Source of the DNA: Halichondria panicea
Taxonomy: Eukaryota; Porifera; Demospongiae; Suberitida; Halichondriidae
DNA length: 64,000 nucleotides
Assembly (NCBI RefSeq): GCF_963675165.1
Contig: NC_087380.1
Span: 2,533,803 to 2,597,802, forward strand
Direction: 5' to 3'
The translations under genes and the position numbers were made by a program. The notes beneath the pieces are model-generated. The model was not told the origin of the DNA. It ran no database searches and saw only the letters and a list, made by a program, of their open reading frames with translations. This document shows positions 12,255 through 44,010 of this stretch, piece by piece; position 1 is the stretch's first letter; each line of letters starts with the position of its first letter.

Positions 12255-12920
12255 TCCTGCATATCATGTTGTGTGCATGGTGTGATATCGGGACCAATGC
12301 TCAGGAGTTCACTGATATATAGCTGAGAACAAAATTTCTTTCTCAACAGTCAAAACATATTCAGCTGATCAGACTATCGAAGTTCTAGCTGGTGACGTGA
12401 TTGCATGGTGCTTGCATATATATACGACCCTCCTATAATGAGGGAGGGTTGTCCGGTTTCAGAGTGCAGCTGCATGCATGGGCATAGTTGGGTAACAAGC
12501 TGGTTCCAATTGATTCCTGATAGCATTAGCTCAAGATGTGGTAATTCAGCTGTTCCTAATTCTGTTTTAGTGGGTCTCAGTAGATTTTAGTGATCCTGCA
12601 AATAGAGATTAATTGTTTATACCACAATAAACCGTAATAACAATTCGATCCTTTACTAACTACCACACCAGTCCTCCAGCTGTGACTATATAGACATGCA
12701 GTTGTACAATATCGGAAACCTTTACCTCAACAGTTACTATACTCTATATACCCGCTGTTGAAACTTCTTCTGGGATATCAATATTTCTATCCCCAATTAG
12801 TTCAGTTGTGATTGCAGCATCGGTGACATCAACTGTTAGTCCAATAACACCAATTGCTATGTCCGCAATGTACACCGTGGCTATAGCAACATCGGAAGTA
12901 GTCTCCAGTAGCATCATCCA
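12255..12920 (+). pseudogene. Decayed ectodomain and stalk fragment of the RTK at 28693
   Basis: This stretch aligns by eye, in order, with 28,850-29,690 of the complete RTK. Matches include GGGACCAATGCTCAGGAGTT at about 12,290, CATATATACGACCCTCC at about 12,415, the GTAATTCAGCTGTTCC segment, then stalk sequence from about 12,660 (CTTTACCTCAACAGTTACTA). Frames are broken by many indels and there is no signal exon, transmembrane segment or kinase. It is a dispersed, truncated duplicate lying about 16 kb upstream of its relative. Confidence 0.8.
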
Positions 12921-13076
12921 TTGCAAGTGGTTTAAACGTCCTGCATTAATTAGAAACAACAATTATAATTTTGTAATGTCTACGTCCTATAATTGTTAAA
13001 CACAGCACACAACTGACACACGACATAATTAACGTTATTGTTCTCTGCACATGCAATCAACTTTAATAGTGTAACT

Positions 13077-13177
13077 AGCCTCGATCCCAGGCCGAGTTTT
13101 CGCTTTTATAACGGTTAGGCGAACAGTTGTTCGCCTAACCGTTAATAAAAGCGAAAACTCGGCCTGGGATCGAGGCT
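13077..13177. mobile_element. AGCCTCGAT foldback element, copy 1, with target duplication
   Basis: Near-perfect hairpin: AGCCTCGATCCCAGGCCGAG through TTCGCTTTTAT to a centre at about 13,127, then its inverse ending TCGAGGCT. It is flanked by ATAGTGTAAC at 13066-13075 and again at 13178-13187, a 10-bp target duplication. Terminus shared with 18607 and 22779. Confidence 0.88.
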
Positions 13178-13191
13178 ATAGTGTAACATGA

Positions 13192-13252
13192 TGTGGGCAG
13201 GCGAGAGCTCTGATGTGTGGGTGTTAGACTCTCTTTGGGAGGTGTGGCTGAC
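13192..13252 (+). promoter_or_regulatory. Conserved upstream block of the receptor cluster, copy 1
   Basis: TGTGGGCAGGC ... GATGTGTGGGTGTTAGACTC ... GGAGGTGTGGCTG lies about 90 bp 5' of the first ATG. Similar blocks precede the copies at 14980, 16945, 18726 and 24847, while the surrounding spacer is less alike. The GTGTGGGTG and GGCGTGGC cores resemble CACCC/GC-box (KLF/Sp-type) sites; that reading is inference. Confidence 0.5.
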
Positions 13253-13342
13253 TGATTCACACTAGTAACCTACTCTATCTAGCTCTATGTCAATTGAACA
13301 AGCCATCAAGCTCTAGTTTATAGTTAGTGCTGTGTGTTCATA

Positions 13343-14647
13343 ATGGAGTTGTATGCATTCTGCCTCTGTTTCATCTTGTATGGTAAGCACAGAGAAGAGA
13401 CATCTGTATATATTTGTAGAAACTTGTATAGAGTCATAAGATTTTTGTACAGGTCTGCCAGTAGTTTTGTGTCAGCTCAACTGTACCGACCAAACCTTTG
13501 GTAGTGAAAACGAAACAGAATACACTGAAGCAACAAATATGATGGTGTTTCTCAACTTGAACGATACAGTCGAGTGCTACGGTACTGTCTCCTCGTATCG
13601 ATACTGTCACTACCCCACTACACAGGGTAATCCAGTTAAACACAATGCTATTTTAGCGGTGTTTCGATTGGAAGGCAATCCTTAATGGGATCAGAAGCAG
13701 CTATCGAAGTCACAAGTATCGAACCTTTCAGTTGTAGTACTGATATGCTTGCAGCCAGTGTACAGATTGAACCTGGAGATGTACTTGGAGCATGTGTAGG
13801 TCAAAGACGAACAGGTGGTAATAGAGAACAGCTGAATCTTGTTGGGACTGATGCGACCGGATTTTCTGTCAGCGGTGTGTCTGTCAGTGACTGTCCCTCA
13901 GCCTATATAAATTCAGTAACAGTTACTGAACTGACGAATTTTTCAGACAGGATTCTTCATCTCTCAGCTGAATTCGGTGAGTTATTAGACAATACTCATG
14001 CAGTAGTAATACGAGACGTTTAATTGTTTATATAGCTCCTGCTGAGCCTCCAACTACACTCACACCCACTGATCCCCTAAACACTGATCCCCTGGCCACT
14101 AATCCACTGACAAGCTCAGGCTCTCTTGTTCCCACTCCAACAACTAATCCACCAACAGGAGGCAAAAAATCGTCAGCTTTTGTGATTCAATGTTCAAACC
14201 GTTTCTATTAGGAGCTGCCACTAACAACACAGCTGGAGTTGCAGAGTTGGTGTTATTGTTGCTCTCCTGTTTGTGGTCATCCTTGTAGCTCTGATAGTAA
14301 TCATAGTGATCGTCATTAAGAAGCGTGGGAAAACTTCATACGCTCTGAAAGAACACAGAATCCACTCACCTGGTAATTTTAGTGCACAAACATTTCTAAA
14401 TCTGTTTGAATTTCCGGTTTATCATCAGATAATGAAGTAGAGCTCAGCTCTGAAGTTTCACTTACGAACATACATAGCGAGCATGGACAAACATTCACAG
14501 TGAAGTCCAACGATGCTTATGGAACTACCACCATGAACAATAGGTCAGGTACTACAGTCGAGGAACAACTCGGAATGTGTCATAATGAAGCATATGGTAC
14601 ATCTACTGTTGTTATGACAATGAAGATCATGAGTATGATATGTTATA
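13343..14647 (+). pseudogene. Kinase-less six-cysteine receptor, copy 1 (broken)
   Basis: Exon 1 (13343-13382) encodes the start of a signal peptide (MELYAFCLCFILY). Exon 2 from 13453 encodes the six-cysteine ectodomain, then come a Thr/Pro stalk exon, a transmembrane exon and a tyrosine-containing tail. Against its paralogues it lacks 10 nt near 13,680, giving TAA at 13683-13685. It also has a 2-nt insertion near 14,243 at the start of the transmembrane helix and single-base losses near the tail end. Downstream pieces stay recognisable in other frames (GDVLGACVG at about 13,780). No kinase exons follow. It is either a pseudogene or a badly assembled allele. Confidence 0.8.
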
Positions 14648-14798
14648 AACAATGTTTCAATAGAATCAAAATTATTTTTTTAGCGTGTCTTTCCACGAAT
14701 GTCTATTTTATGTTCACTGTGTGTGTGTCTCTGAATGGCATATTTTAGTGTGTGCATTATTGAAACCAGTCAAGCACATCTGTGTGCTGAACTGGTGT

Positions 14799-14872
14799 TT
14801 GATGCGTGGGCAGGCTGGCTGACATCATGATGTGTGGGTGTTTGGTCTTTGGAGGCACTAGACGTGGCTGGC
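14799..14872 (+). promoter_or_regulatory. Conserved upstream block, copy 2
   Basis: GATGCGTGGGCAGGCTGGCT ... ATGATGTGTGGGTGTTTGG ... GACGTGGCTGG lies about 108 bp before the ATG at 14980. It is part of the same block family as 13192. Confidence 0.5.
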
Positions 14873-14979: not shown

Positions 14980-16335
14980 ATGGAGGTGTACTCATTCTGC
15001 CTCTTTTTCATGTTGTATGGTAAGCATAGAGAATAGAGGCTGACATGCATTTGTAGATCTATTTGTAGAGAAAACTTTTAAAATTATCAACTAGATCTAG
15101 ATCTAACCACCTTTTTCTGTACAGGTTTGCCAGCAGTTTTGTGCCAGCTTGACTGTACAGACCAAGTTTTTGGGAATGAAAATGAAACAGAATATACACT
15201 GAGGCCACAGATACGATGGTGTACCTCAACTTGAACGATTCAGCAAAGTGCTATGGTACCCTCTCCTCGTATAAATTCTGTCACTACCCCATGACGACTG
15301 GGACAGATTACAATGCTTTTTTAGCTGTGTTTCGAAGACAAGGCGATACCTACGTACCCGTAATGGAGTCAGGAGCATTTCTCCAAGTCACGGTTGCTCA
15401 AGCCTTCAACTGTAGTACTAGTGTGCCTGAGGGGTCAGGCAGTGTACAGATTGAACCTGGAGATGTAATTGGAGTGTGTTTAGGGCCATTACAAGGTCAA
15501 AGAGAACAGCTGAATCTTGTTGGAAATGATGCAACTGGGTTTTCTGTCAGTGGTGTGTCTATATCTGGTAACTGCAATTTAAATACAGCAACGGTTACGA
15601 TTAGTGAACTGATAAATCTTCCAGACAGGATTCTTCATCTCTCAGCTGAATTCTGTGAGTTGATAGTACATATCATCACGAGATGTTCATAATTACTTCA
15701 TGTTCTTAGCTCCTTCTACCGAGCCCCCAACCCTACCTCCAACCACTGATCCCCTAAACACTGATCCCCCAGCCACTAATCAACCAACAAGCTCAGGCTC
15801 TCTTGTTCCCACCCCAACAACTAATCCACCAACAGGAGGTAAAAAATCATCAGATTTTGTAATTCATGTTCAAACCGTTTCTTGTAGGAGCTACCAACAC
15901 AGCTGGAGTTGCAGTTGGTGTTGTTGTTGCTCTCCTGTTCGTGGTCGTCTTGGTAGCTCTGATAGTAATCATAGTGATCGTCATTAAGAAGCGTGGGAAA
16001 ACTTCATACGCTGTGAAAGAACACAGAACCCACTCACCTGGTAATTTTAGTGCACAAACATTTCTAAATCTGTTTGAATTTCCGGTTTATCATCAGATAA
16101 TGAAGTAGAGCTCAGCTCTGACGTTTCCCATACGAACATACATAGCGAGCATGGACAAACATTCACAGTGAAGTCCAACGATGCTTATGGAACTACCACC
16201 ATGACCAACAGTAGGTCAGGTACTACAGTCGAGGAACAACTCGGAATGTGTCATAATGAAGCATATGGTACATCTACTGTTGTTAATGACAATGAAGATC
16301 ATGAGTATGATTATGTTATAAACAATGGTCAATAG
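14980..16335 (+). pseudogene. Kinase-less six-cysteine receptor, copy 2 (frameshift in ectodomain)
   Basis: Exon 1 is 14980-15019 (MEVYSFCLFFMLY); the ectodomain exon starts at 15125. A stalk exon (TEPPTLPPTTDPL...), a transmembrane exon with KKRGKTSYAVKEH and a tail exon ending at the TAG at 16335 follow. A 2-nt insertion near 15,193-15,197 shifts the frame after NENETEY; the rest of the domain is open in the shifted frame. The tail reads SNDAYGTTTM, HNEAYGTSTVV and HEYDYVIN, repeated tyrosine motifs with N at -3. No kinase lies before the next copy. The tail is almost identical to copies 1 and 3, so duplication is recent. Confidence 0.78.
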
Positions 16336-16944: not shown

Positions 16945-18258
16945 ATGGAGGTGTATGCATTCTACCTCTGCTTCATCTTGTATGGTAAGAACAAAGAATA
17001 TAGAGAATAGAGGCTTAGATCTATGAACTATATAGACCACCTCTTTTTCAGTTGTACAGGTCTGCCAGCAGTTTTGTGTCGACCAAAATTTTGGTAATAA
17101 AAACGAAACAGGATACACCGAGGCCACAGATACGATGGTGTACCTCAATTTGAACAATCCAGCAAATTGCTCTGGCACACTCTCCTCGTATCGATACTGT
17201 CACTACCCCACAATGGATGCTTCTTTAACATATAATTCTATTTTAGCTGTGTTTCGATTGGTAGGCAGTGACTATTATGTAGCTGTGGATGGGTCAGACA
17301 TAGTTATTGAAGTCACAACCACTGAAGCCTTCGGTTGTGTCACTCTTCCATTCACTGCTACTGTACAGACTGAACCTGGAGATGTAGTGGGAGCGTGTGT
17401 AGGTCCAAGACAAGGTGGTAACAGACGTCAGTTGAATCTTGCTGGGAATAATGCGATCGGATATTCTGTCCGCGGTGCATCAAGATCTGGCTGTCCCACA
17501 AATAATTTAAATTCAGTAACAGTTATGAATAGTGAATTGCTGATTTTTCCAGACAGGATTCTTCATCTCTCAGCTGAATTCAGTGAGTTATTAGATAGCT
17601 AGTACAATACTTATGCAGTAGTATATAATACGAGTGATTATAATTATATTGTTCATATAGCTCCTACTGAGCCTCCAACTACACCCGCACCCACTGATCC
17701 CCCAGCCACTAATCCACTGACAAGCTCAGACTCTCTTGCTACCACCCCAACAACTAATCCACCAACAGGAGGTAAAAAATTGTCAGCTTTTGTGATTCAA
17801 TGTTCAAACCGTTTCTATTAGGAGCTGCCACTAACAACACAGCTGGAGTTGCAGTTGGTGTTGTTGTTGCTCTCCTGTTCGTGGTCGTCCTTGTAGCTCT
17901 GATAGTAATCGTAGTGATCGTCATTAAGAAGCGTGGGAAAACTTCATACGCTGTGAAAGAACACGGAACCCACTCACCTGGTAATTTTAGTGCACAAACA
18001 TTTCTAAATCTGTTTGAATTTCCGGTTTATCATCAGATAATGAAGTAGAGCTCAGCTCTGAAGTTTCACTTGCGAACATACATAGCGAGCATGGACAAAC
18101 ATTCACAGTGAAGTCCAACGATGCTTATGGAACTACCACCATGAACAATAGGTCAGGTACTACAGTCGAGGAACAACTCGGAATGTGTCATAATGAAGCA
18201 TATGGCACATCTACTGTTGTTAATAACAATGAAGATCATGAGTATATGATTATGTTAT
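16945..18258 (+). pseudogene. Kinase-less six-cysteine receptor, copy 3 (14-nt deletion)
   Basis: Exon 1 is 16945-16984 ([13 protein letters not shown]). The ectodomain exon starts at 17060 and has lost 14 nt at about 17,080 compared with the copy at 18726, removing the first cysteine region and causing an early stop. The rest (17,100-17,590) is open in a shifted frame and keeps GDVVGACVG. The stalk, the transmembrane exon and a tail ending in DNEVELSSEV...NDAYG...NEAYG follow, with a further 2-nt insertion (GAGTATATGATTATG) just before the stop. No kinase exons. Confidence 0.78.
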
Positions 18259-18533
18259 AAACAATATTCAATAGAATCAAAAAAACTACCCTATTCATCT
18301 TTCTAGCGTATGGATTTCTATTTTCATTGTGTCTTTATCATAATTTTATTGTGTGCATGATGAAAACTGGTGTTGAATTACCTAATTAAGATGACATATT
18401 TTTTCGCGGTTATTAATTTCTGATATTTGAGTAAAGGCGCCCTGGACCACAATCTACTACTGGGCCAATAAACATGTGACACTCATATAGCCATGTAATA
18501 ACTAATACATAATTTGTAGCTAGCTAGTGTTTG

Positions 18534-18600: not shown

Positions 18601-18606
18601 ACATCT

Positions 18607-18725: not shown

Positions 18726-21700
18726 ATGGAGGTGTATGCATTCTACCTCTGCTTCATCTTGTATGGTAAGAACAAAGAATAGAGAATAGAGGCTGACATT
18801 TAACTAACTTATAATTATCTATTTACATTGTATCTAGCTAAGTTTGGCTATAATAATTTATGTATACCACCTCTTTTTGTGCAGGTCTGCCAGCAGTTTT
18901 GTGTCAGCTCGACTGTACCGACCAAGTTTTTGGTAATAAAAATGAAACAGAATACACCGAGGCCACAGATACGACGGTTTACCTCAACTTGAACGATCCA
19001 GCAAATTGCTCTGGCACACTCTCCTCCTACCGATACTGTCACTACCCCACAATGGATGCTTCTTTAACTTATAATTCTATCTTAGCTGTGTTTCGATTGG
19101 TAGGCAGTAACTATGTAGCTGTGGATGGATCAAACATAGTTATCGAAGTCACAACCACTGAAGCCTTCAGCTGTGTCACTCTTCCATTCCTTGGTAATGT
19201 ACAGACTGAACCTGGAGATATAGTGGGAGCGTGTGTAGGTCCAAGACAAGGTGGTAATAGCAGACGTCAGTTGAATCTTGCTGGGAATGATGCGATTGGA
19301 TTTTCTGTTCGCGTGCATCGAGATCTGGCTGTCCCACAAATGATTTAAATTCAGTAACAGTTATGACTAGTGAATGTATGGTTTTTCCGGACAGGATTCT
19401 TCATCTCTCAGCTGAATTCGGTGAGTTATTAGATATTACAATACTCATGCAGTAGTAATACGAGTGATTATATCATGCTCATATAGCTCCTACTGAGCAC
19501 CCAACCACACCCGCACCCACTGATCCCCCAAACACTGATCCCCTGACCACTGATCCACTGACAAGCTCAGGCTCTCTTGTTCCCACCCCAACAACTAACC
19601 CACCAACAGGAGGTAAAAAATCATCAGATTTTGTAATTCATGTTCAAACCGTTTCTTATAGGAGCTGCCGCCGATAACACAGCTGGAGTTGCAGTTGGTG
19701 TTGTGTTCGCTCTCTTATTCGTGGCTGTCTTGGTAGCTCTGATAGTGATTGTCGTCATCGTTATTACAAAACGTGGGAAAACTTCATACTCTCTAAGAGC
19801 CAATAACAACCACCAAGCTATCGGTGAGTTAAATTAATAATTGTCATCACATTCATGTATTAATGTGCAGGTATTGATAATCAAATCTATGGAACTGGGG
19901 AGCTGGAGTCAAGCTTTACTGATGGCAAAGATGTTGAAAATAATTACGAAGTGCCTCATGAAAATGGTGATATCTCTCCATATGAGGTAGTGCCTCCCAA
20001 ACGGATTGGGACAATGGCAGCTCCAGCATCTCATAAGAACCTGTCTGTTGCATCGCGCTCAGCCACCATGCCGTGGAACATCCAGCCTGCTCCATACGAA
20101 GGAATGGTAACTAAATCTATTTATGTCAATCTCTAAATAAGGTTGAGTAAGTCCCTTTTTTGTGTGAACGGTTGTAACAGTGTACGTATTCAGAGACTAT
20201 TACCATTGTGGGTGTATCAGCATCTGCTTGATATGGGATAGGTTATGAATACTAGGTTTGCTTATAAGGAGATAATTATTATTGGGAATTGACTTATTAG
20301 GTGTGTACACACACGCATGCACCACACTATCTCTAACTCATGCATGCATGCAGGCGTTTGGTGGTGATGTGTACTCTTCTCCAATTGATGCAATGAGATA
20401 CTCGGAACTTATTGAGCAGGTATAAATTATCAGATAATTGTTGACAAATACCTGTGTGTGGGAGCCGTTTAACATAAAATAAGCACTCTATGGTTTCTGG
20501 TTACCTTTGCTTGAGGTGAAATATTTACACATTAGCAACACACTGTTTATGCTAGACAGCCGTGTGTGTGTGTGTGTTGTTACAAGAGTATTCATTGAGT
20601 GTTGTTTTAAAATATAAAGCCACAAAAGCCCTACAATGTACGTCAATACTAACAAATACGTGAATGGTTATGATGCCAGTGTTGCGGGGAATCTTCTGTA
20701 GCACTTTATTGTATTGAGCAGTTAAAATTATATTATACACCTAATTTTCAGAACAAGGAAGAAGACATATACAGTAATGTGGACCCATTCCAAGCACCTG
20801 CCGCAGATGAAGATGAGATCTACTCGCAGCTGCATTCCTGGGGCATCCTAAACTTGTCCAGCAGCGATGTTGTGTGAGTTACATGTTGATCTCCCCCATT
20901 AATAATTGATTTGCTGTTTACATTGTCCTTCTATATAATGGAAGACTGTATTAAAACCATAATAGGCTTTTAGGCGTCCACAACTGATGCTATCTTTAAA
21001 TAACATTATCATAATTATACGGTAGTGGTTTTGCGGTCTATAGCTTCACCTTCAATTTCATGCTGGCAGTGGATTATAAGTTGAAGTATCACTATTGATC
21101 ACAACCACATGTAGGGCTTACATTGTTGAAAATAAATACGCACCCACAACATACAACATAATTATATATACTCACACTGCATGTAGCGTTTCAACTTATT
21201 TTGTTATCATAGAATAAAACGTCATCTCGGCTCTGGTCAGTTTGGTAGTGTGGAACTTGGTCAATGGAATAGACATGGAACTAAGCCAGTGGACGTGGCA
21301 CTCAAGAGTCTCACCAAAACATCAGAGGAGGACAAAGTCAAGTTCCTACAAGAAGCCGCCATCATGGCTCAGTTCAGACACCCTAACGTTATCATGCTTT
21401 ATGGAGTGATTGCTAAAGAGGAGCCAGTAAGTTATAGTAATATTCACTGTAGGGGCTGGGCTATAGGTTGTCCCTTCTTTGAATGGATTTATTTTTCTTT
21501 ACTTGAAATACAGTGTCTTATTCGGGGTACATGCATTAATTGTTTCACCCAACAGATGACGTTGGTTGTCGAGTTGGCCCAAAATGGAGATTTGAGAGAA
21601 TTCCTTCTTTCAATGAGACCTGAGTGAGTTATGCAGTTTTGACTCTACAATAAATTATATTTATTCTCACTAACAGGAGCTTTGGTGAAGAGTTAGACGA

Positions 21701-22583
21701 TCGTGCTCAAGATGATGGTACTATAACAGATGTGACTGAACGGAGGGAGAGGTCTAAGACACTGCCCCCTGAATCCAGCACCATGTTCCTGAAGTTCTCT
21801 CAACAAGTTGCTCTTGGGATGCAGTATCTGGCCGGCAAAGGATTTGTGCACAGAGACCTGGCTGCTAGGAACATTCTTGTAATCAAAAATAAAATTTGCA
21901 AGGTATAAATGTGATATATGAAGCTGAGTATCATACCTGCTATTGTGTATAGGTGGCTGATTTCGGTATGTCACGTGACTTGGAGAATGAGAGCTACTAT
22001 GTATCCCACGGAGGAAAAATTCCCGTCAAGTGGACAGCCCCTGAGGCCATTCACTACAAGAAGTACTCGACTGCCAGTGATGTGTGGGCCTACGAGTGTC
22101 TGCTCTATGAGATATGGAGCATTGGGCACAAGCCGTTTGAGGGAATTCGAAATGTGGATGTATGTTGCTATTTAGCATATTTTTTTTCACTTTTTGTCAT
22201 GTTTGTAGGTTATTGAGACTGTGGACTCTGGAAAACGATTGCCTCCACCTCCTGGAATACCAAAAATACTCTATGAGCTGATGATACTATGTTGGTAAGC
22301 TAGATCTATATAGCATTGTAGGCGCGTGATTATATTCCCTTATTTCCTTAGGCATCCTGAGACTGAGCTTCGCCCTGCTTTCCGTGATATTGTGTTGACG
22401 CTGGTTGGAAATAAAGAGAGAGTTTTGGACATTCCCGAGGAAGACTCCTCCACTAACCCACTGTCTGTCGTATTGGGAGCTCCACTGGAGGCCGGGGAGA
22501 ACATGTACTCTCAGCTGCAAAGTAGATATATTGATTACGCTGCACGTAAAGAAACTGAAGAAGACTATTTTGAGATTGATTGA
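18726..22583 (+). CDS. Receptor tyrosine kinase with six-cysteine ectodomain (RTK-1), one frameshift in the ectodomain
   Basis: About 13 exons. 18726-18765 and 18885 onward encode the signal peptide and six-cysteine ectodomain. A Thr/Pro stalk (about 19,486), a transmembrane exon (about 19,662; [20 protein letters not shown]) and juxtamembrane exons follow, with tyrosines in [18 protein letters not shown] and [10 protein letters not shown]. The kinase runs from about 21,212 to 22,480: GSGQFGSV loop, VALKSL lysine, [21 protein letters not shown] in the activation loop and PVKWTAPEA. The C-tail has MYSQLQ and ends at 22583. One G is missing at about 19,312 relative to the paralogue at 16945 (CGCGTGC against CGCGGTGC), causing TAA at about 19,346. 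The usual Gly of [10 protein letters not shown] is Glu (GAG, 22094-22096). Confidence 0.85.
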
Positions 22584-22831: not shown

Positions 22832-22974
22832 AGCTCTCCCTTTAATGGAGCATCATCTGGAACCATGCACCTATATACCACCACAGTATTTTTCCATGTG
22901 TGATCACAAGATACATGCAATAATACATGCCTGACATGAATGCCAACCATCTTGATCTTGGTTCAATAGCAGAA

Positions 22975-27800: not shown

Positions 27801-28475
27801 TGTGTTAGTGTAGACCTTATGGTGTCGGATATACTACACAGATCGCAGAGTTTGGCATGTCCCGAAACCTTGCCGATGAAAGCTACTATGTGTCGCAAGG
27901 GGGCAGGATCCCCGTTAAGTGGACAGCTCCTGAGACCATTCACTACAAGAAGTACTCGACTGCCAGTGATGTGTGGGCCTACGGGTGTCTGCTCTATGAG
28001 ATATGGAGTTTGGGACGCAAGCCTTTTGAGGGAATACAGAATATTGATGTAAGACTGACATTATATGACAGCAATCAATCTTTCATCCCAAATTCAGGTA
28101 ATCCAACTTGTTGACTCTGGCAAACGATTGCCTCCACCGCCTGGCTGTCCAAGGTTGATCTATGAGCTTATGACCATTTGCTGGTGAGTTGCGGTTACAG
28201 CATGCTTAGAAACTACTTCTATCACTTGTTTCACTAGGCACCCCCAAACAATGGTGCGTCCTGGTTTCCGTGACATTGTGCTGACGCTAGTTGGCAGCGA
28301 GGAGATGGTCTTGAACATTCCCGAGGAGGACTCCTCCACTAAACGACTGGCTGGAGTATTGGGAGCTCCACTGGAGGCCGGAGAGAACATGTACTCTCAG
28401 CTGCAGAACAGATACATTGATTATCTCCACAAAGCTGGAATGGAGACTGATACCGACTACTTCGATGTTCTTTAA
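24847..28475 (+). CDS. Receptor tyrosine pseudokinase with six-cysteine ectodomain (RTK-2)
   Basis: Exons 24847-24895 (signal start [19 protein letters not shown] at 24856 is an alternative), 25018-25635 (six-cysteine ectodomain), 25686-26426 (mucin-like stalk plus transmembrane helix [20 protein letters not shown]), 26479-26723, 26914-26985, 27067-27188, 27249 onward, 27513-27580, 27625-27778, 27842-28048, 28098-28183 and 28238-28475. Juxtamembrane tyrosines include DYDEV, DEDYDF, ADLYDHI and LYGQLKSWG. In the kinase domain the Gly loop reads APSQFRSV instead of GSGQFGSV, and the metal-binding DFG is EFG (GAG at 27848-27850). HRDLAARN, the beta-3 Lys (VELK) and PVKWTAPE remain. With neither Gly loop nor DFG Asp it is probably catalytically weak or dead and acts as a scaffold. 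The frame is otherwise intact; AATAAA occurs at 28519-28524. Confidence 0.88.
25700..26075 (+). repeat. Coding minisatellite: 45-bp units of a Thr/Pro/Ala stalk
   Basis: About eight head-to-tail units encode [15 protein letters not shown] with small changes (TEV for TEA, one shortened unit). It lies between the ectodomain and the transmembrane helix of RTK-2. It predicts a heavily O-glycosylated stalk whose length may vary between alleles. Confidence 0.9.
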
Positions 28476-28692: not shown

Positions 28693-32408
<3,716 letters not shown>

Positions 32409-32665: not shown

Positions 32666-35600
32666 ATGACTGGAGCAGCTAGATATATCTGGCTTCTGTT
32701 TTACGGTAATTTAAAACTCTAATCGTTAAAAAGATAATGAAGACATAAAATTAGCTAAATCTAGTCTGCCGATAGATGATCTAGATATCTATATAGCTTT
32801 ATAAACTTGAATGATCTGTTGAATGAACTGTTATATAATTATGAATGAACTGTTCCCTCAGGGCTGCTAGTGAGCATTCATTGTGTCAGTGCCCAGTCTA
32901 CTTGTGGATGGATCGGAACAAATTCTACCACACCTACTACGGCAAGCATCCAGCAGCTGTTTGTGCTTAACATGCTGGAGCCAGCAACCTGCGACGGAAC
33001 CATCTCAAATTATCAATACTGCTACTATCCGCTGATGAATGAAATCAGTTCAAATAAAGAGATTTCTTTATCGTTTGAATTTGCAGTATATCGAAGTATT
33101 AATGATTCCTACAGAAAGATGTCCGACTCTATTTTTGTCGCACAGACTGAGGTGACTGTGAAACAAATTTGTGTGACAGGATATTTCTCAGATCCAATTT
33201 CTGTTGATAAAGGTGACGTACTTGGAGCTTGTGTCAATATTAGCGCTGACAATGCTAGTACGCAAGTTAGTCCGATTGGAAACAATTCAAATTCCAATAT
33301 GTATTTGTTGACAGCTGGCATCGACCTCTGTAGTGGTTCCATTCCACCCTCAATTCCAAGACAAAGTCTCACGGAGACAAGAGGATTAGTTTTACATCTC
33401 TCGGCTACCGTATTATCGAGAACTAACTCAGGATTGATAGCCGAAGAAATTGTTGCAATTGTCGTTCCTCTAGCAGCTATAGCAATTATTGCTGTCGTAA
33501 TTATTGTGATTTACTGGAGTTGCAAACGGAGACATAGCATCAGTCCATTTGCTTCAACTGAACCACTTCTTCCTCAAAACCCTGGATATGGTGAGTATGT
33601 AATTAGTTATGTCTACATTCTCGTCGTATTGATTGCTTCAGCTTTCTGAATATTCACTTGCTTCATATACTTTTTCTAGATAATGCTATGTACTATGATG
33701 TCAGCATTATGCGCGGTGGGCACCAGTACAAATCAAGAGCGGACTCTGGCACCTACGAAGCAGTGGATTCACCTGAGTCAAGCACACAGTTTCACACTCC
33801 CATCCTTTCTGACAACTCCGCTCCTGACGACACAAGAATAGACTCGGGAAGTTATGCCGTGGTCAGACACACCTCGGTTCATAACCGAGCAGCGTTGGTT
33901 AGCCCGAGGGAGAACAGGGAAGATATGGAGGCTTCTCAAAGACATGTGTACGAGTTAGAAATCAGTAGCAGAACGCGAGGTTGCTCTTTCGAGTGCTCCT
34001 ATGAGGATGTCAATCACTACGAACCTATGGTGAGATATACTCAACCACACACCCACATACCTATATATACATTGAGCTGGTGTTTGGCTGACTAAGAATA
34101 CTTCTATGCTGTTTTTAACACGCCACCTGTTTCGTCACAATATGCTAGTACCCTGGGATGGAGTATCTTGATCCTCTTCAGGCCACTGAGAAGCCTGTAA
34201 CTATCACACAGTTGTTGGAAATGGTGAGTGTAAACTGGGTCATTGCCCTTATACGTGGGTTTGGGTGTTTAATTTGCTACAACTTCCTCTAAAATAATTG
34301 TAACGGCTGTTAGAATATACTACATGCACTAGACTAGGTCCAATAAAATGCATGGAATTTCCTGTTTCAACACTTATTTGTGGAGTTGTATACACATAAC
34401 CTATATAGTATGTGTTTATATCTGTATTTCCTCTCAGAACAAGGAAGAGGACATATACAGTGAAGTGCGTCCATTCCAGCGGCCTGCCTCAATAGAGGTG
34501 GATCTGATGGGTCAGCTAAAATCGTGGGACATACGAACTCTGGCGAGAGACACAATTGAGTAAGTTCAAAACCTGTTGATATAATCTATAGAAGTTGTAA
34601 AGCAGTGCTTTCTTATCAAACTAACTCTGTATTTCCAATCATTTATCCTTACAGCGTACAGCTGGATATTGGAACGGGGCAGTTTGGTACCGTAAAAGAG
34701 GGAGTGTGGCAGGAGGAGGATGGCAGGTCCACTAAAGTTGCACTCAAGAGCCTCAAACACGATTGTGCTCCAGATGACAAGCTCAAGTTCCTACAAGAAG
34801 CCGCCATCATGGCTCAGTTCAGACACCCTAACATCATCATGGTCTTTGGGGTTGTGGTGGAAAGCCAACCGGTGAGTGACTTATAATTACAGAGTTTTGC
34901 AGAATCCTTGCACCAGGGCTAGGGATGCGGCGATTATGCGAGCATAATTTTGAGAATAATGGGTAGCTTGGAGCATTAGGAATTATGCGGGAATAAACGG
35001 TAGAGTGGGTGGGAATAATTATGCCACGTGGCTAGCATTCTAAATAAAGCACAATTACCATTGTTATTGTACTCTACATGTAGCTCTGATCTGATCTCTG
35101 GGCTAGAGACTGCAGCTAGCTAGCTAGCTAGCCTTACCGGTAAAGACAGACCATAGACAGTATAGTAGACTACTAGTACTTTATATGGAATCTGAAGAAA
35201 ATCAAGAGATTAGATTACTGAACCTACTGAAGCCAATTCCAGTTCCAACAAGTAGAGACATATCGATGTTGGATCAACTCAAGGCACTTCGTTTGGTGAT
35301 CAGCAAGACAATACTCTTCAGGACTATGTACATTATTATATCATTATGTAGAGACTTCCTTGTGTTGCAATTTATCAAAAGATGATTTTTATTGTGATTT
35401 TAATAAAGAATAATGATTTTTTTTGAGAATAATGGGCTAAATCACTGAGAATAATAGGCTATAGCTTGGGAATTGGAGAATAGAATAATGGGTAAAATTT
35501 GGAGCATAATAGCCTCAAGCCTAACCAGGGCTAAACAGACACAGCAATGACTTCCATATATGGAAGTCAACTGCTGACTTATAATATTGTGTACATGTAT

Positions 35601-37672
35601 GCAGGGTGTCATACAGGGGACTCTAGGGATATGATTATCCGAGTCCCCTCTGGCTCCAATTCCCCAGGCATTCAGGTACCTCAGTTGTTATGACTGAGTG
35701 CTGAGTGTCCATAGCTGTTGACTTTTTTTAATTATTCAAAGTCCCCTCTATAATTTAAAATCCTGTATGACAACCTGGTATGTGTATAATTATTTGAATA
35801 GCTTGAATTGAAAGATGTCCTGTGATCCTAAGAGAGCATCAGCTTATAAGGTGGCGGATGGTGCACCAGGTAGAAATGTCGTGAAGTTGGTGTGCTTCAG
35901 CTGTGTGCAGAACTGTTGCTCTTTTCAATGATATCAGAACAGTTGATAAACAAAAACACCAGCTGTATTGACTGATATTGATAAGCTTATCATATTAAAA
36001 CAATTTCAGAGAGGCCAGATATTATTTACTTGCGAGAGGTTCTTTCTAATGAGACTGGTACACATGTTGATGCAGATTTTCAATTGCATTTACTCACTGG
36101 CCTCGTATTAACAGCTTCTTAGACAGCTTGCCCCTAAGGTCTTATACTGTAACAAAATCTCCTCAGGCAATTTTTCTGTCAGTTCCCGTCTTGTCAGCAA
36201 AAATCAGCATTTTAGGATGACCATCGAAAATCTGCAAGTCTTAATTGAAGGTCACTTCTTTGCTTTGCAAACAAGAACCATCTCTTTTGTCTGGTTATAT
36301 TTGAAGAATGCAAAAACCTCCAACATAAACTGATAATAATAAGCTTATCAATATATCAGTCAATACAGCTTGTGAATAAGCTGATGCTCTCTTAGACTCA
36401 CAGAACATCTTTCAATTCAATATACATACCTGTATAATTATGTACACTATAGTAAAGCAGTTAATTTCCATATATGGAAGTCATTGCTGTGTGTTTAGCC
36501 TTGTTGCAAGGCTCTGAAAAACCCTGCACAAATTGCAAATTACAAATTACAAATTGTATACTAAAAACAAACAACTTGTTAATTGGTTTTTCAGATGATG
36601 ATTGTAGTTGAACTTGCTACTAAAGGAGACCTCAGAAACCATCTCATCTCCATAAGACCAGAGTAAGCTGTAATGTGTATTACAGAATTCAGAATGGGTA
36701 ATGGTATTGTAAGAGTGTATTGCTTTCTATACTTTTGTGGAGTTAGATGCAACATTTTTTTAAGTGTAATTTTGTTTTCAGTTTTAGACAATCGTATAAT
36801 TTATGCAGTCCTAATGAGAAGCCTCCCGAAGGATTGAGCAAAACATTCTTAGAGTTCTCTCAACAAGTGGCTCTTGGGATGCAGTACCTCTCAGCTAAAG
36901 GATTTGTGCACAGAGACCTGGCTGCTAGGAACATACTTCTGTCCAAAAAGAATGTTTGCAAAGTATGAAAATCATTCATTTTCTGATATAATTATTATAC
37001 TTTTGTTTCAAACACCAGGTTGCTGATTTCGGTATGTCTCGCGATCTTGCTGACGAGAGCTACTATGTATCACACGGTGGTGTAATCCCCGTCAAGTGGA
37101 CAGCCCCTGAGGCCATTCACTACAAGAAGTACTCGACTGCCAGTGATGTGTGGGCCTACGGGTGTCTGCTCTATGAGATATGGAGTCTGGGACACAAGCC
37201 GTTTGAATCGCTAACAAACATCCAGGTACGTTTCAATAAGCAGTGTGTAATCTATTTGTACTTTACGACTGATAATCATTTCTTATATATAGAGTCTAGT
37301 GAGCCTTTTAACTCAGTATAACATACTTTTTTCTATTTAGGCTTTAAGAGTACTGGAAGTTGGTACAAGACTCTCTCCACCTCCTGGCTGTCCAAAGATG
37401 ATTTACGAGCTCATGACCCTCAGCTGGTATATACAATTATAAGCTTAGCTTCATTTCAATTGCATATTTCTACGCACAGGCATTCTGAGAGTTCCCAACG
37501 TCCTGGTTTTCGTGACATCGTGTTGATGCTGATTGGCAGTGAGAAGATGGTCCTGAACATTCCCGAGGAGGACTCCTCCACTAACCCACTGGCTGGAGTA
37601 TTGGGAGCTCCACTGGAGGCCGGGGAGAACATGTACTCTCAGCTGCAGAACAGATACAGTAGAAGTGTATAG
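32666..37672 (+). CDS. Receptor tyrosine kinase with six-cysteine ectodomain and almost no stalk (RTK-4)
   Basis: Exons: 32666-32705 ([13 protein letters not shown]), 32862-33590, 33680-34029, 34149-34223, 34438-34559, 34655-34871, 36595-36662, 36782-36962, 37019-37225, 37341-37426 and 37480-37672. The ectodomain runs straight into the transmembrane helix ([20 protein letters not shown]) within one exon; the usual stalk exon is absent. Kinase: [35 protein letters not shown] and PVKWTAPEA, all intact. Juxtamembrane tyrosines: GTYEAV, GSYAVV, EDIYSEV. The tail is shorter than in its relatives, ending NRYSRSV. Intron 6 (34,872-36,594) is unusually long and carries an inverted-repeat element. AATAAA is present at 37803-37808. 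Confidence 0.92.
35524..36503. mobile_element. About 1-kb long-inverted-repeat element inside an RTK-4 kinase intron
   Basis: Left arm AGGGCTAAACAGACACAGCA...ATGACTTCCATATATGGAA is inverted at 36,455-36,503. The match continues further in: GAATTGAAAGATGTYCTGTG and GAGAGCATCAGCTTAT occur on both sides. No transposase frame seen. The rest of the intron (34,905-35,520) is AT-rich with repeated GAGAATAATGGG-type motifs and a 66-codon open frame I do not recognise. Confidence 0.7.
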
Positions 37673-38768: not shown

Positions 38769-39230
38769 GTGTTGGTGTTCCAGTTGTGGGCTGATGAACG
38801 AAACCAGTTCAAATCACAAGATTTCTCGATCTGCATTGTATTGAAGTATTAATAATTAGCAAGGTATCCGACTCTGTTTCTGTCAGACAGACTGAAATTA
38901 TACTGCTCAGGCCCAATTTCTGTTGATAAAGGCGACGTATTCTTGGAGCTTGTGTGACTGTCGATACTATAGTGATGCTACACAGGTTAATCTGGCTGGA
39001 CAATATGTTTGTAGCACTGCAGCAACAGCAACTATCTTAAACGATAATTTATGCCACGAACAAACTCTCCTCTCCCACAGCCAGTATACTGCATGGAAAT
39101 GTTTCGATCACCACAACGTCATCTTTTATAGTGCCTCTTTTGCTCCAGCCAACAACACCGGGGTAATCGTTGTGGCAATGGTGATTTTTTGGGTAGTCAT
39201 TTTGTACTGGTGAAGAGAGGAAGATTTCGG
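38769..39230 (+). pseudogene. Decayed ectodomain and transmembrane fragment related to RTK-4
   Basis: 38,785-38,960 matches the RTK-4 ectodomain exon around 33,040-33,230 (CCCAATTTCTGTTGATAAAG, then GGCGACGTATTCTTGGAGCTTGTGTG). Several frames are broken. 39,150-39,210 still encodes a hydrophobic run (TGVIVVAMVIFWVVILYW). Confidence 0.65.
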
Positions 39231-40151
39231 AAGGAGGTAGCAGAGGGAAATGTTGGTATAGGAATACTAACACTGGAATCAACAGTATATACTAGTGGTA
39301 TGCGTTTTTTTTTTAATGCATACTACACACACACTCAGTATAGGGTAGGTTAGTTCAATGTACAGTGCAATAATTATGCTAGTTAGTTCAATGTTAAAGG
39401 ATCAGTGGCCTGTTATCAGTGACTCACTGATCACTAAATCGATTGGGAGGGAAGTTGCTTTTGAGGCCTTGCCTGCAGTTGAACGAGCTCCTCTGATGGC
39501 TTGGATTGAAGATCTTAGGAGTGAGAACGAGAGGCAGTATCTCAGCCAATTCATTGTGGAGGTATAGGGTTGGGTTGGGTATGAGTAAGGTGTTTGTTTT
39601 GTTTTCCCACTGCAAGAAGTATGTGGATAGTCATACTCATAGATCTACTGATAAATCCGACTAGAAAAACATTTGCAATGTGAAAAATTGCTAGGATTGG
39701 CCAGGGGAACCACAAAAAAGCGTGGAAACAAGAAATCAGACGAGATACAAAGAGAGAAAAGGCTAAATAAACTATCTGTATAGCCAGTTCCTTGATGTGG
39801 CCTTTCCCTGCAGAGATAGAACAGTTTGAACATGAGTAAAAAATAATTGAAATATTGCTAAACAAGGGCAAACCCACTGCCAATCCTATGTAAAACCTAC
39901 TGATCACAGTAATGAGGCATATGGCACATCTGAGTGATAGGCAAACAGAGGAAACTCTTGACTAGATTTTTGCTACTGGACTGAATCACAGTTTGCCTTA
40001 TACGATATTTGAGTAACTGGTCATTGTCACCTCTCTGCATGACAGGAAACCATCCAAGATTATATTGCATTCCATAGGCAGAGGCAAGTTTTCCATGTAG
40101 ATATCCACTTCTATTATAGAGTCTACAAGAAATTTAAGCAGATTGGTACAA
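39231..40151. other. Spacer with short receptor-tail relic and an unrecognised 70-codon frame
   Basis: A plus-strand open frame at 39358-39567 (ends LRSENERQYLSQFIVEV) resembles nothing I can name. At about 39,911-39,960 AATGAGGCATATGGCACATC is a relic of the receptor tail motif NEAYGTS, also found near 42,000 and 43,435. Otherwise nothing recognised. Confidence 0.4.
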
Positions 40152-41976
40152 ATGAGGTGCAGCACACTTTCTATAATTTCCTGTGCTTGTAAGTGTCTGC
40201 TTTAATATTTATCGCTATAGAATTAGTCTTTGCAATGAGTTAACTAGTTTTTCTATGCAGTGTTGGTGCTCCAGCAGCTGGTGTCTGGACAGCAGTGTGG
40301 TACAGTCGGTCGTGTGGGCAGTACAAGGACTGGTGATAATAGAGCATATAATGAGTTCTACATTGATCGTGGTAATCGTGCTGGATGTGCTGGGATGATC
40401 ACCTCACTCTCTTACTGTTTCCATCGACCACCATCGACTGCTCCAGTTGCTAACGAATACCTGACTACAGTTGCTGTGTACAGACCAGCGAGTACCAATG
40501 CAAATGAGAATATGTTTACTGTTGTTTCTTCACCGATCACAATACAAAAGTCAGCAACAGACCTTGAAGCTGAATTAAACGCTGCTGCTGATACTAACTT
40601 CGCCTGCTCTGCATTTAACCTACCACAACCAGTACCCATGGAAACTGGTGATGTTCTTGGAGCGTGTGTGTTTAACCCTGATGACATTACAACCTACCGT
40701 CTTGATATAGTCAGTAGAGCTGCTTTCAATAATGAAAACCTCGTGAGAACTGATACACAACCTAGTGTCCCTGCTGGCTGCAGTGCCGCCACTACTGTGC
40801 CAGGTTCCTTTGATGGAGGTGCATTTGGTGCAAGACCTATTACTGGAAGATCTCTCCACCTCTGGGCAAACATAGGTAAGTTAGGGTCTTATTATATACA
40901 AAGTGTTGACTGCAAGTAAATGTTATGTTCTACAAAAGAAACTACAACTGAAGCACTCACACCTTTTACAACTACACCTGAACTAACTGAGGACACCACC
41001 ACACTAGAAGACAGCACAACTGACATGACCACAGCAAGTGGTCCACTGATTACTAATGGAGACTCTACTACAGCAGCCACAAACCGAGGGACAACGAGCA
41101 ACCCTGATGCCACCACTGCACAATCCATTGGTGGTGGGGGAGGTGGTTCTAACGTAGCAACCATTGCCATTGCTGTGGTAGTTGCGCTCATTGTTGTGAT
41201 TGCTCTAGTCGCCATACTGTTGGTAATACTTGCGCTGTTAAGGAGACGATCAAAAACATTGGGTAAGTCACTATTTTGCAATATAATGTCTAAAGTGAAA
41301 CTACAACAGTTTGTTTACATTCGTACGTATGCAGCAAAGAGTCTACACTCGACTAGTCTAAAGTCCAACAAGGCTTGTGGTGTTCATGGTGAGACTCAAG
41401 ACACTCCCACAAACTACTATATGATAATGTTATTGATGAATCAAACACAGATAAAGTTAACACAGAGGAGCCTCTTTATGATACCGTCACAGACTCTAGA
41501 GAGGGAAGAGATATAATAGAAGGACACCTGTACATCTCAGGTATAAAATTGACATGTTTAATGTTATACCACATTCAGTTCTACAACCATGCTTATTATT
41601 CTATAGTCGTATATGTGACTGCTTATTATTTTGATGGTGTGTTTTAATTATTGCAGGACAATTAGCAACAACATGTATTCAACAGCCCATTGATTTAAAC
41701 CCCGGTGTGATTTATGAGGAAGTACCAGGACCTACACACCACAATGATGTTTGTCAGCTGATACCTTTGACAAGTAACGAAGCTTACGGTGTACACAAAT
41801 CTAGAACTACTACAGAAACTCCCGGTGAAACATGCTCACAAGACGTTGACCTGAAGTCCAACAACACATATGGAGTGAAAGGGGAGGTGCAAGTTGCTGC
41901 CATTAATGGGAGCACTGATGCAGTGTACTATAGTGTCATTGGTCAGATTCTGGAGAGACAGCAAGTGCATGCATAG
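40152..41976 (+). CDS. Kinase-less six-cysteine transmembrane receptor with tyrosine-motif tail (frame slip in tail)
   Basis: Exon 1 40152-40188 joins exon 2 (40261-40875) to give the signal peptide MRCSTLSIISCALLVLQQLV and the six-cysteine ectodomain. Exon 3 (40939-41262) encodes a Thr-rich stalk, a Gly run and the helix NVATIAIAVVVALIVVIALV. Exons 4 (41335-41540) and 5 (41657-41976) form a tail with LKSNKACGVH, LYDTVTD, LTSNEAYGVH, LKSNNTYGVK and VYYSVIG. Compared with the fragment at 38,050, exon 4 has 2 extra bases near 41,425 (CTACTATATGATAATG). Read as written it stops at 41514-41516 and loses the tyrosine motifs of exon 5. No kinase follows. Either a damaged gene or an allele or assembly error. 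Confidence 0.75.
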
Positions 41977-42289
41977 AACTGAATTTTAAATGGATATACA
42001 GCAATGAGACACATGGCACATCTGAGAGGGATAGTGACTATAATTATGATAATGCTATTCTGTAAACTGAATTACTTGATCTCGTTTTATCATGTAACAA
42101 CAGTTACTTATAGTGCAGTGTTTATTATTGTACATGCAAGTGCTGGTTAGAATGCTTATAATAATGCCTGCACCACCTTTCATGCATGTCTTGACAGGAA
42201 TCATTGCAAAATCCCAAGATTATACATTCCACGTGCAGACTTAATGTTAGATCTATACTAACACTACCACAAACAAATTAAGCTGACTG

Positions 42290-42565
42290 ATAAGTGGGGT
42301 TAAGTGTATGCAGCTGTTTCTTCACTGATCACCATAAATAGGTTGGTAACATGCAGATTCAATGCTGCTGCTGACATTAACTTTACCATGTACCTTGCCA
42401 ATACAATGAACCAACTATCAATGAATACAAAGAGACAATTTTCTAAATGGGTACACGAACAGTATATGCTATGTCAAACCATGCCATTGCTGTGGAAGTT
42501 ACTGAGTTTGCTTTAGTTGTCATACTAGTCTTGTGCTATAATAAGGAGACGATCTAAAGCATCCA
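42290..42565 (+). pseudogene. Ectodomain and transmembrane relic of the receptor at 40152
   Basis: GCTGTTTCTTCACTGATCAC and AATGCTGCTGCTGACATTAA match the ectodomain exon near 40,520-40,600. ATGCCATTGCTGTGG and AAGGAGACGATCTAAAGCAT match the transmembrane exon near 41,165-41,255. The intervening sequence is deleted and no frame is open. Confidence 0.7.
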
Positions 42566-42630
42566 TTGTACTCAGTCAATCCGTAATTTATTAATTTTAA
42601 AAGTTGTCTGTAATAATCTTTACATGCATA

Positions 42631-42838
42631 TACCGTATAGCGGGGAATTTTCGTGGTGGTAAAAATTTCGTTTACCTTCAATGAGGTGATTTTCATAAGT
42701 ACAAAGTTCGTTCGACTTCATGCATGGCCTGCACTGAATTCCATGCATTCCAGTAAACCGCGCCTATGTTTTCATGGAGGCCAGCTTTCCTGCGAAAATA
42801 ACGAATTTTTACCCACGAAAATTACCCGCTATACGGTA
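42631..42838. mobile_element. MITE, CCGTATAGCGG family, copy 3 (best preserved)
   Basis: TACCGTATAGCGGGGAATTT at the left and ATTACCCGCTATACGGTA at the right form terminal inverted repeats of about 20 bp flanked by TA. Internal GGTAAAAATTTCG and ACGAATTTTTACC motifs are also inverted. No coding potential. Confidence 0.82.
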
Positions 42839-43079
42839 TGCATTCACTGATTGTGAGAGCATTGCAATTGCATATTATATATATAATATTATATCTGATT
42901 TGAATAAGCAGCATGTACATGAATTCATTGTTTGTATGCAAAGCGTGCAAGAAGCCCTCATTCTATCAGTCATGAAATTGACATTTAATTCTTCTTGTGG
43001 GAATACTTGCCTGCCCACTTATCAAAATAATCCAGGCCTTGACAATGAAGCATTCATAAATTATTGTACTGTACTAAGG

Positions 43080-43475
43080 CATGCATTATTATTGCAACAA
43101 TTAGCAACGCTTCATATGGCATTGATTAAAACCCTGTGATGGGACTTATGAGGAAGTAACAGGACCTATACACACTACAATGATCTGTGCATGCATGTCA
43201 GTTGATAATTATTTTTGGGCCTTATAGTGTCTACAAATCTGGAAATGAACAGAAATGCCCGGTGAATCATGCTCGTAAGAAGTTGAACTGAAGACCAACG
43301 AGGCGTATGGTATGAGAGGGGAGGTGAAAGATGTTGTCATTAATGGGACCACTGATGCAGTGTGCTATATATAGTGTCACTGACTCGCCTGGTCAGCAAT
43401 CTGGAGTGACAACCAGTGGAATTGAATTTGACAATGAGGCATATGACACATCTGAGAGAGATAGACAACAGAGGA
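43080..43475 (+). pseudogene. Tail-exon relic of the receptor at 40152
   Basis: Aligns with 41,650-41,960 and beyond: GAGGAAGTAACAGGACCTAT, AAGACCAACGAGGCGTATGG, GTCATTAATGGGACCACTGA. Stops and indels break the frame, although the motifs TNEAYG and DNEAYDTSERD survive. Confidence 0.7.
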
Positions 43476-43508
43476 GACCACCTCCACCCCCTTTTGCATG
43501 CATGACAA

Positions 43509-43562
43509 GTAGTCTCATGGATCAGCCCCTCGTAAGAAGGAGGGGGCTGATCCATGAGACTA
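43509..43562. repeat. Short perfect hairpin
   Basis: GTAGTCTCATGGATCAGCCC and its inverse, GGGCTGATCCATGAGACTAG, surround a loop of about 14 bp. It resembles the small foldback elements elsewhere in the window. The rest of 43,563-43,900 holds only weak similarity to 38,760-38,820. Confidence 0.8.
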
Positions 43563-43904
43563 GCAGGACAGGAGGAAATCGTTGCAAATCCTGCATTCCA
43601 TATTATACATTAGACAACTTTAATTATCTACTTCTACAAACATTAATGATAGATAAAAGTAGGACGAGATGCTTTCTGTATGTAATATTTGTTTCTGCTA
43701 TGTTAGTCTATGAGCATAATTATAATGATTATACTTGGCTTATTAATTGTTAGGGAATTAATCTGGTCCTATATATACTGGTGTTCCAGCAGCCCCATAA
43801 TTTATGCATGGTGTCTATAGACAGGGTTTGGGACTGATGAACGAAACCAGTTCAAATCAAGATATCGGAGTAGATCTAAGCTGTAATAATTATTAAATTT
43901 CAGA

Positions 43905-44010
43905 ACTCATAATGGGTATTCGTTTTATAAGAGTGTTTATAGAGACCTGGTTGCTAGGCAATTTGAAATTCCATGGCATGTTGCTGATTTCGGTATATAT
44001 GACTCTAAAT
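43905..44010 (+). pseudogene. Tyrosine kinase core remnant beside the large foldback
   Basis: TTTATAGAGACCTGGTTGCTAGG corresponds to the HRDLAARN region of the RTKs, and GTTGCTGATTTCGGTATAT to their DFG region, with the intron and everything else collapsed between them. It lies about 110 bp left of the 44118 element. Confidence 0.65.

Follow-up and report, generated by a model that had tools for sequence, protein, structure and literature searches.

Receptor tyrosine kinases (RTKs) are known to have expanded in sponges, and the identity and sensing of many of their ectodomains are largely open. In vertebrates, paired activating and inhibitory receptors are encoded by clustered genes with shared ectodomain types and signal through partners with immunoreceptor tyrosine-based activation motifs (ITAMs) or through tails with inhibitory motifs (ITIMs), while ErbB3-like docking receptors are catalytically silent and give tyrosine docking sites to an active partner. 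Passages of three reports describe related sponge systems: lineage-specific expansions of Eph receptors (PMC6485061), an immunoglobulin (Ig)-type RTK in Geodia cydonium (PMC12018476) and a set of nearly 200 putative cytokine receptors in Halichondria panicea, among which tyrosine kinase, Ig and fn3 domains are dominant (PMC8242945). The diversity of this last set emerged only when the Amphimedon proteome was used for comparison, and its authors propose a Porifera-specific superfamily (PMC8242945). Here we describe an array of receptor genes on contig C4 of the H. panicea genome (131 Mb, 39 contigs), seen from a window of 64,000 bp (C4:2533803-2597802). Its members share an ectodomain, the GDxxG domain, and end either in a tyrosine kinase or in a tail with repeated NEAY-type tyrosine motifs. 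The H. panicea survey fits such an array, and its passages do not name the domain (PMC8242945).

Like RTKs of the Eph, EGFR and IGF1R classes, to which they are related by kinase sequence, the kinase-bearing members are predicted single-pass receptors with a PF07714 kinase; PDB kinase rows for gene F were led by EGFR (one entry, two stretches), followed by EphA3, EphA7, FAK and IGF1R. Unlike those classes, they showed no Ephrin_lbd, fn3, SAM or Ig family in Pfam scans of the whole RTK genes E, F and G and of the ectodomains, nor any receptor-L or furin-like domain in these scans. The Eph receptors and the G. cydonium receptor in the passages above are likewise sponge RTKs, but their ectodomains (Eph ligand-binding domain plus fn3, and Ig-like, respectively) contain domains absent from our Pfam scans. 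Vertebrate paired receptors resemble the array in clustering, shared ectodomain types and alternative signalling tails, but they use ITAM partners or ITIM tails where the array has an intrinsic kinase or repeated NEAY motifs, and their ectodomains are of other types. Gene E resembles ErbB3-like docking receptors in its degenerate kinase, whereas the kinase-less members differ from them in having no kinase exon at all among the matches listed. With moderate confidence, we lean towards reading the locus as tandem single-pass receptors built on an uncatalogued GDxxG domain, with paired catalytic and docking outputs and a use in lineage-specific recognition.

Eight copies of the ectodomain (A to H) lie on the plus strand of the window at 13454-40875 and, together with their tails, take up ~13.4-42 kb of it. 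The first-pass annotation had placed a shared receptor domain on five exons (at 18885, 25018, 28819, 32862 and 40261); it is encoded at all five, and at three more (13454, 15126 and 17052). Three of the eight copies (A, B and D) are frameshifted inside the domain exon and hence broken or misassembled. RTK genes E, F and G (spliced models of 934, 973 and 744 residues) and the kinase-less receptor C were modelled whole, with AG/GT at every internal exon border and continuous spliced frames. Exon borders were read from the sequence, and signal peptides and transmembrane segments were judged by eye. The receptor features of the window are as follows.

13454..13976, plus strand: member A, ectodomain exon, frameshift near 13680
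14422-14613, plus strand: member A (L062), kinase-less tail with NDAYG/NEAYG
15126..15655, plus strand: member B (L057), ectodomain exon, frameshift near 15197
16090-16308, plus strand: member B, kinase-less tail
16945..18260, plus strand: gene C (L030), whole kinase-less receptor
16945-16984, plus strand: gene C, signal-peptide exon (by eye)
17052-17582, plus strand: gene C, ectodomain exon, phase 1-1
17661-17771, plus strand: gene C, Thr/Pro-rich stalk
17822-17980, plus strand: gene C, transmembrane segment (by eye)
18037-18260, plus strand: gene C, tail with NDAYG and NEAYG
18726..22583, plus strand: gene D
18726-18765, plus strand: gene D, signal-peptide exon (by eye)
18885-19421, plus strand: gene D, ectodomain exon, frameshift near 19315
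19487-22583, plus strand: gene D, stalk, transmembrane and kinase exons, intact
24856..28475, plus strand: gene E, RTK with a degenerate kinase; ectodomain exon 25018-25635
28693..32408, plus strand: gene F, whole RTK; ectodomain exon 28819-29379, kinase exons 31148-32408
32666..37672, plus strand: gene G, whole RTK; kinase exons 34655-37672
32862-33590, plus strand: gene G, ectodomain and transmembrane segment on a single exon
40261..41976, plus strand: gene H (L038), kinase-less receptor
40261-40875, plus strand: gene H, ectodomain exon, phase 1-1
40939-41262, plus strand: gene H, stalk and transmembrane segment
to 41976, plus strand: gene H, tail with NEAYG and NNTYG, unspliced in this model
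12275..12999, plus strand: decayed F-like fragment with a stalk piece (by eye)
22970..23113, plus strand: decayed copy of the juxtamembrane exon of D (tblastn, E 3.9e-17)
24418..24635, plus strand: decayed copy of the last kinase exon of D (tblastn, E 1.1e-15)
38890..39960, plus strand: decayed G-like ectodomain piece and isolated NEAYG tail piece (by eye)
42280..44010, plus strand: decayed H-like and kinase (VADFG) fragments (by eye)

The decayed pieces at 38890..39960 and 42280..44010, both read by eye, gave no match in a tblastn search; the isolated NEAYG tail piece corresponds to a DNA-pattern match at C4:2573713 (window 39911). The limits of the region at 12255 and 44010 fall within decayed fragments (by eye). 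The kinase domains of the whole genes were identified as PF07714 in the Pfam scan (E-values of 4.7e-87 for F, 1.9e-78 for gene E and 3.4e-85 for G), and HRDLAARN and DFG are kept in F, G and D. The kinase of gene E has HRD, has EFG in place of DFG and is without the GxGxxG loop; with a complete open frame and a degenerate kinase, this gene is a candidate pseudokinase receptor. All non-kinase Pfam rows for the three models were below cut-offs (strongest in the stalk and transmembrane part of F, 1.1e-5 and weaker) and none fell in an ectodomain.

The domain is ~160-200 residues long (~180 in the window copies) and contains, in order, C1, C2-x9-C3 within CxGTIxxxxYC, a VYR/VFR strand, Y..VS, C4-x18/19/21-C5, C6 and an LHLxA-like end, the C4-C5 segment closing in GDVxGAC or GVC. 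Cys2-x9-Cys3, Cys4-x19-Cys5 and a GD[VIM][LIV]GAC core are kept by all five members named in the first-pass annotation, but the claim that every member keeps them does not extend to B (Cys4-x21-Cys5 and GVC), to the L011-type copies (x18 and GVC) or to the upstream minus-strand copies, where L067-L069 are without Cys5 and Cys6 and L059 is without Cys5 (its end is unseen). Nor is an LHLxA end general, F closing in MHIYA. Placement on one symmetric exon holds for E, F, H and C, whose phase 1-1 ectodomain exons have AG/GT borders, and is common on C4, where 18 of 28 members examined have a phase-1 donor (GT one base past the domain); it fails for G (L024) and L019-L022 (5/28), in which the domain runs in frame into the stalk and transmembrane segment. 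The exon end was unscored in L010, L017, L018, L029 and L036, which are truncated or frameshifted.

When the genome was searched with F, 28 other stretches matched with E-values of 2.4e-81 to 6.1e-12, some of them window members, and the domain is therefore beyond chance. Own-genome searches returned 40 stretches with F, 24 with G and 28 with C (E up to 0.01), and 37 with H and 39 with gene E (E up to 0.1), all on C4. These stretches span 2.518-2.754 Mb, except for one copy (two stretches) at 1.653 Mb, and an additional minus-strand stretch lies at 2.513 Mb. The window is thus part of a C4 array of ~240 kb with about 40 domain stretches; the domain and array counts are lower bounds. Near-identical blocks lie ~10.2 kb apart around 2.69-2.71 Mb (L018/L017, L020/L021, L034/L036), and part of the array is therefore recent.

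Searches of the domain catalogues bear out the earlier view that the domain is uncatalogued. The queries were eight window pieces, 13 members of the C4 profile A2 and that profile, nine members of the C17 profile A4 and that profile, seven diverged members, and one C4 and three C17/C16 members. No credible domain match was found in Pfam-A (24736 models; best E 0.046) or in NCBIfam (a single row, E 0.12). Among PDB sequences, the small profile A1 returned only LAMP3 (E 0.18) and an Eph receptor chain (E 0.59), neither credible; these rows were not repeated with the larger profile A2, which gave no row up to E 10, and A4 gave no row. CUB, EGF, Ig, sushi, MAM and other catalogued extracellular domains had no credible Pfam or PDB profile match. 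Among the open-licence papers that our literature searches listed, none describes the domain in its title or the start of its abstract. A bacterial or viral origin was considered and set aside; no relatives were confirmed in viral_contigs (profiles A2 and A4) or in genome_contigs (F as sole query).

Relatives of the domain extend beyond C4. The diverged minus-strand copy L059 matched 27 stretches at E up to 0.1, three of them on C17 and one on C16 (off C4, best E 2.9e-5 and weakest 0.016). With a C17 copy as query, 47 stretches matched (E up to 0.01); C17 holds 45 of these, and C16 and C6 one each, that on C6 being very short. Profile A2 aligned to A4 with a probability of 96.2 and an E-value of 2.4e-9 over 94 columns; the score was 63.3, whereas none of 100 column shuffles exceeded 18.3 and the reversed profile scored 10.6. 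On C17, L070 has the domain, stalk, transmembrane segment, tyrosine-rich tail and kinase exons in that order, and the tail of the kinase-less L071 contains NEAYG, NQAYG, NEAYV and NEAYT (by eye). On C13, L093 has one clear domain copy (E 7.3e-10 against a small set of frames) with a transmembrane segment and kinase downstream, and a possible second copy (E 0.13) accepted by eye alone; L094, in a second C13 region, has kinase exons and no domain match above threshold. Judged from these alignments, the six-cysteine form is one branch, rich in cysteines, of a wider superfamily on C13, C16 and C17. A profile of the domain is now available to search for, and the domain is carried by receptors in three tyrosine-kinase clusters (C4, C13 and C17).

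The six cysteines, first proposed as the mark of the domain, were rejected as its defining trait: C5 and C6 are jointly missing in L067-L069, as are C3 and C4 on C17 (by eye). These joint losses suggest disulfide pairs C1-C2, C3-C4 and C5-C6, with an exception in L070, which is without C2. The domain is probably disulfide-stabilised and all-beta. It is for the hydrophobic pattern and the disulfides, assessed by eye, that a beta-sandwich comes into consideration. The domain might then be a highly diverged form of a catalogued beta-sandwich (for example Ephrin_lbd/discoidin-like, MAM, CUB or C1q-like) missed by profile methods. The weak PDB rows of profile A1, LAMP3 and the Eph receptor chain, point the same way, but the larger A2 and C17 profiles have no PDB row (A2 up to E 10) and no scanned member comes near the cut-off of any Pfam family; we consider such an origin possible but doubtful.

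The earlier description of the domain as joined to a tyrosine kinase or a short tail holds in that both occur, but the short tail bears repeated NEAY-type motifs that are absent from the kinase-linked members examined. Domain and DFG-exon coordinates on C4 were compared by hand, using a kinase DFG-exon search in which 150 of 271 candidates were scored, and members were called kinase-less if no DFG exon among the matches listed preceded the next domain. All 18 plus-strand DFG exons among the matches listed (2.555-2.757 Mb) have a domain copy 1.8-4.9 kb upstream of them. Thirty-one array members could be typed, 18 kinase-linked and 13 kinase-less. In the 1.1-1.5 kb that follow the domain, the motif N[EDQN][AT]Y[GSRAV] is found in 0/18 kinase-linked and 13/13 kinase-less members, with 2-4 copies per kinase-less member (shuffle mean at most 0.06). 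The count excludes the small or broken fragments at 2618093, 2622022, 2630169, 2638029, 2647157, 2670959 and 2673341 and neighbours, the 1.653 Mb copy and the minus-strand copies. The split is clean, which makes joint signalling directly testable.

Genome-wide, a DNA pattern for NEAYG gave 110 matches versus 27 for the reversed pattern (100 places listed). All 39 matches on C4 are on the plus strand inside the array (2.548-2.740 Mb of the 7.8-Mb contig). C17 has 8 among the matches listed, and C1 has 39, many of them one identical word and perhaps repeats. Of the 100 listed NEAYG-coding words, 37 lie at C1 11.3-17.7 Mb, many letter-identical; between 15.5 and 17.4 Mb this contig also bears some thirty open frames that look like kinases. 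Groups of the pattern outside both arrays are present at C6:4235770-4297180 (4) and C11:5947210-5965894 (3), the latter near tyrosine-kinase matches at 6.01 Mb.

The kinase-bearing type has a tail with YSQLQ after the tyrosine kinase, and a juxtamembrane YxxPhi-x13-YxxL pair precedes the kinase in D, E and F; G is without the second tyrosine. The ITAM consensus is YxxL/I-x6-8-YxxL/I, and N-x-x-Y is a PTB-type core. The pairs in D, E and F do not have ITAM spacing, with 13 residues between motifs, and the first motif of D has V. The C/D-like, H-like and L011-like ectodomains are each found with both tail types; the same ectodomain type with two alternative tails is what characterizes a paired system.

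Ectodomains within the H-like, L019-like and L011-like groups have omega (the nonsynonymous to synonymous rate ratio) of 0.19-1.06, mostly 0.2-0.8, and the kinase DFG exon 0-0.20 where computable. The most constrained segment is C2-C3, with no change in the H-like and a pN/pS (nonsynonymous to synonymous proportions) of 0.13 in the F-like group. Short loop windows exceed 1, the H-like group reaching 1.09. The F-like group has a pN/pS of 2.00 across C1-C2 as a whole and peaks at 2.96 in a window of 15 codons, values that rest on few changes. Broad diversifying selection was rejected on omega and segment pN/pS, the local F-like peaks remaining.

Sensors and kinases differ in depth. Among the three main subtypes, dS (synonymous divergence) runs from 1.4 to saturated in the ectodomain versus 0.07-0.26 in the kinase exon, and amino-acid identity is 20-50% in the sensor versus 80-98% in two kinase exons. 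The short intron between the two kinase exons, compared over its full length, is 25-47% identical among subtypes, which is the shuffle level. On this ground we rejected the idea that the kinase similarity stems from recent conversion of the entire kinase region. Low kinase-exon dS could mean that kinase exons were exchanged or that silent sites are constrained. A likely case of recombination between ectodomain and kinase was found in L033/L035, because the ectodomain is nearer L034 and the kinase nearer L025. In the ectodomain tree L033 and L035 are in a starred clade with L034 and L036 (99/96), and ectodomain dS of L033 is 0.20 to L034 versus 0.46 to L025. The L033/L035 kinase is nearer L025 (DFG exon dS 0.05 versus 0.24 to L034), with a whole intron 78-80% identical to L025 versus 51-53% to L034 (shuffle maximum 49). 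The kinase protein tree joins L034/L036 with L019-L022 (97/94), but the kinase DNA tree does not.

The layout read from the sequence is a signal exon, one domain, a Thr/Ser/Pro-rich stalk, a transmembrane segment and then either tail. In the paired catalytic and docking system that we favour, ligand binding by the domain would cluster receptors with the same ectodomain type, and the kinase-bearing partner would autophosphorylate and also phosphorylate kinase-less partners of that type on their NEAY tyrosines. Adaptors with PTB or SH2 domains may then bind the phosphorylated YxxPhi and NEAY sites. The kinase-less receptors would thus act as docking co-receptors or decoys, and every sensor subtype would feed a common output. 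The array would be renewed by duplication, decay and swapping of ectodomain and kinase halves, and its most likely use would be lineage-specific recognition of microbes, of self and non-self or of a diversified ligand family. If the locus does serve recognition, it would be a sponge candidate receptor system with a sensor invisible to Pfam-based immune surveys.

Several observations weigh against this proposal. Cooperation between kinase-less and kinase receptors is argued from shared ectodomain types and clustering. The NEAY motif was spotted in these tails before being counted, and a diverged kinase in a "kinase-less" member could have been missed, 150 of 271 candidates having been scored. 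Several copies are frameshifted, and broad diversifying selection is not seen, only two ectodomain pairs being just over 1 (1.06 and 1.01). As to exchange of halves, kinase dS is higher (0.27-0.91) in comparisons with window genes D, E, F and G, and synonymous constraint could account for low kinase-exon dS, the intron between the exons being at shuffle level among subtypes. In approximately unbiased (AU) tests, kinase DNA rejects the ectodomain grouping weakly (p 0.042), post hoc after the tree, and the reverse test, of the ectodomain against the L034/L036 plus L019-L022 grouping, is not significant (p 0.074).

The receptors might instead behave like ordinary RTKs and respond, as tissues develop or grow, to a small family of endogenous ligands (growth factors or contact ligands), with the array providing simple dosage or tissue subdivision and the kinase-less copies being degenerating by-products. 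Ectodomain omega below 1 in most pairs, conserved catalytic motifs in F, G and D and the many broken copies are consistent with this account. It sits poorly with the repeated tyrosine motif, present in 13 kinase-less and 0/18 kinase-linked copies; because this specific motif is common to all 13, the kinase-less copies are not mere truncations. It sits poorly too with sensors at 20-50% identity beside two kinase exons at 80-98%, and we regard it as unlikely. A narrower form of the favoured proposal takes the locus for an allorecognition or innate immune one, whose receptors recognize polymorphic markers of self or molecules on microbial surfaces. The tandem array with near-identical blocks ~10.2 kb apart and decayed copies, old sensors with similar outputs through kinase or docking tails, and F-like ectodomains in which pN/pS locally exceeds 1 (2.00 for C1-C2, up to 2.96, few changes) all speak for it, as do the almost 200 putative cytokine receptors in the survey passages (PMC8242945), but there is no broad positive selection in the ectodomain, and we hold it only tentatively. 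Broader and rather improbable is the idea that the large GDxxG superfamily is a paired system for self/non-self or microbial recognition near the base of the animal tree, in which one sensor repertoire (about 40 domain stretches in the C4 array and 45 on C17) is wired to interchangeable kinase and NEAY outputs; if true, sponges would have an equivalent of paired immune receptors that uses neither Ig nor lectin domains.

Other features of the window lie around the receptors. Pieces resembling proprotein convertases, probably from two genes (Peptidase_S8 twice, P_proprotein once), are at 899-8258 on the minus strand. A perfect 34-nt inverted repeat with 35 nt between its arms is at 13076-13178; it is a small hairpin repeat, perhaps a miniature inverted-repeat transposable element, and by eye the sequence near 18600 and near 22780 looks similar. 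Beside the kinase array, exons of a receptor-type protein tyrosine phosphatase occur in two similar-looking copies (by eye) at 49036-63633 on the minus strand (PF00102, E 1.7e-30 and 1.8e-30), with sushi and EGF exons nearby. A giant minisatellite of 27-bp units fills 44251-48695 in two oppositely oriented halves of 69.6 and 94.1 copies. The unit is TGTCACCACTGTAACAACTGTAACACC up to 46116, and from 46175 on it resembles the reverse complement; GC skew changes sign between the halves, from -0.37 to +0.36.

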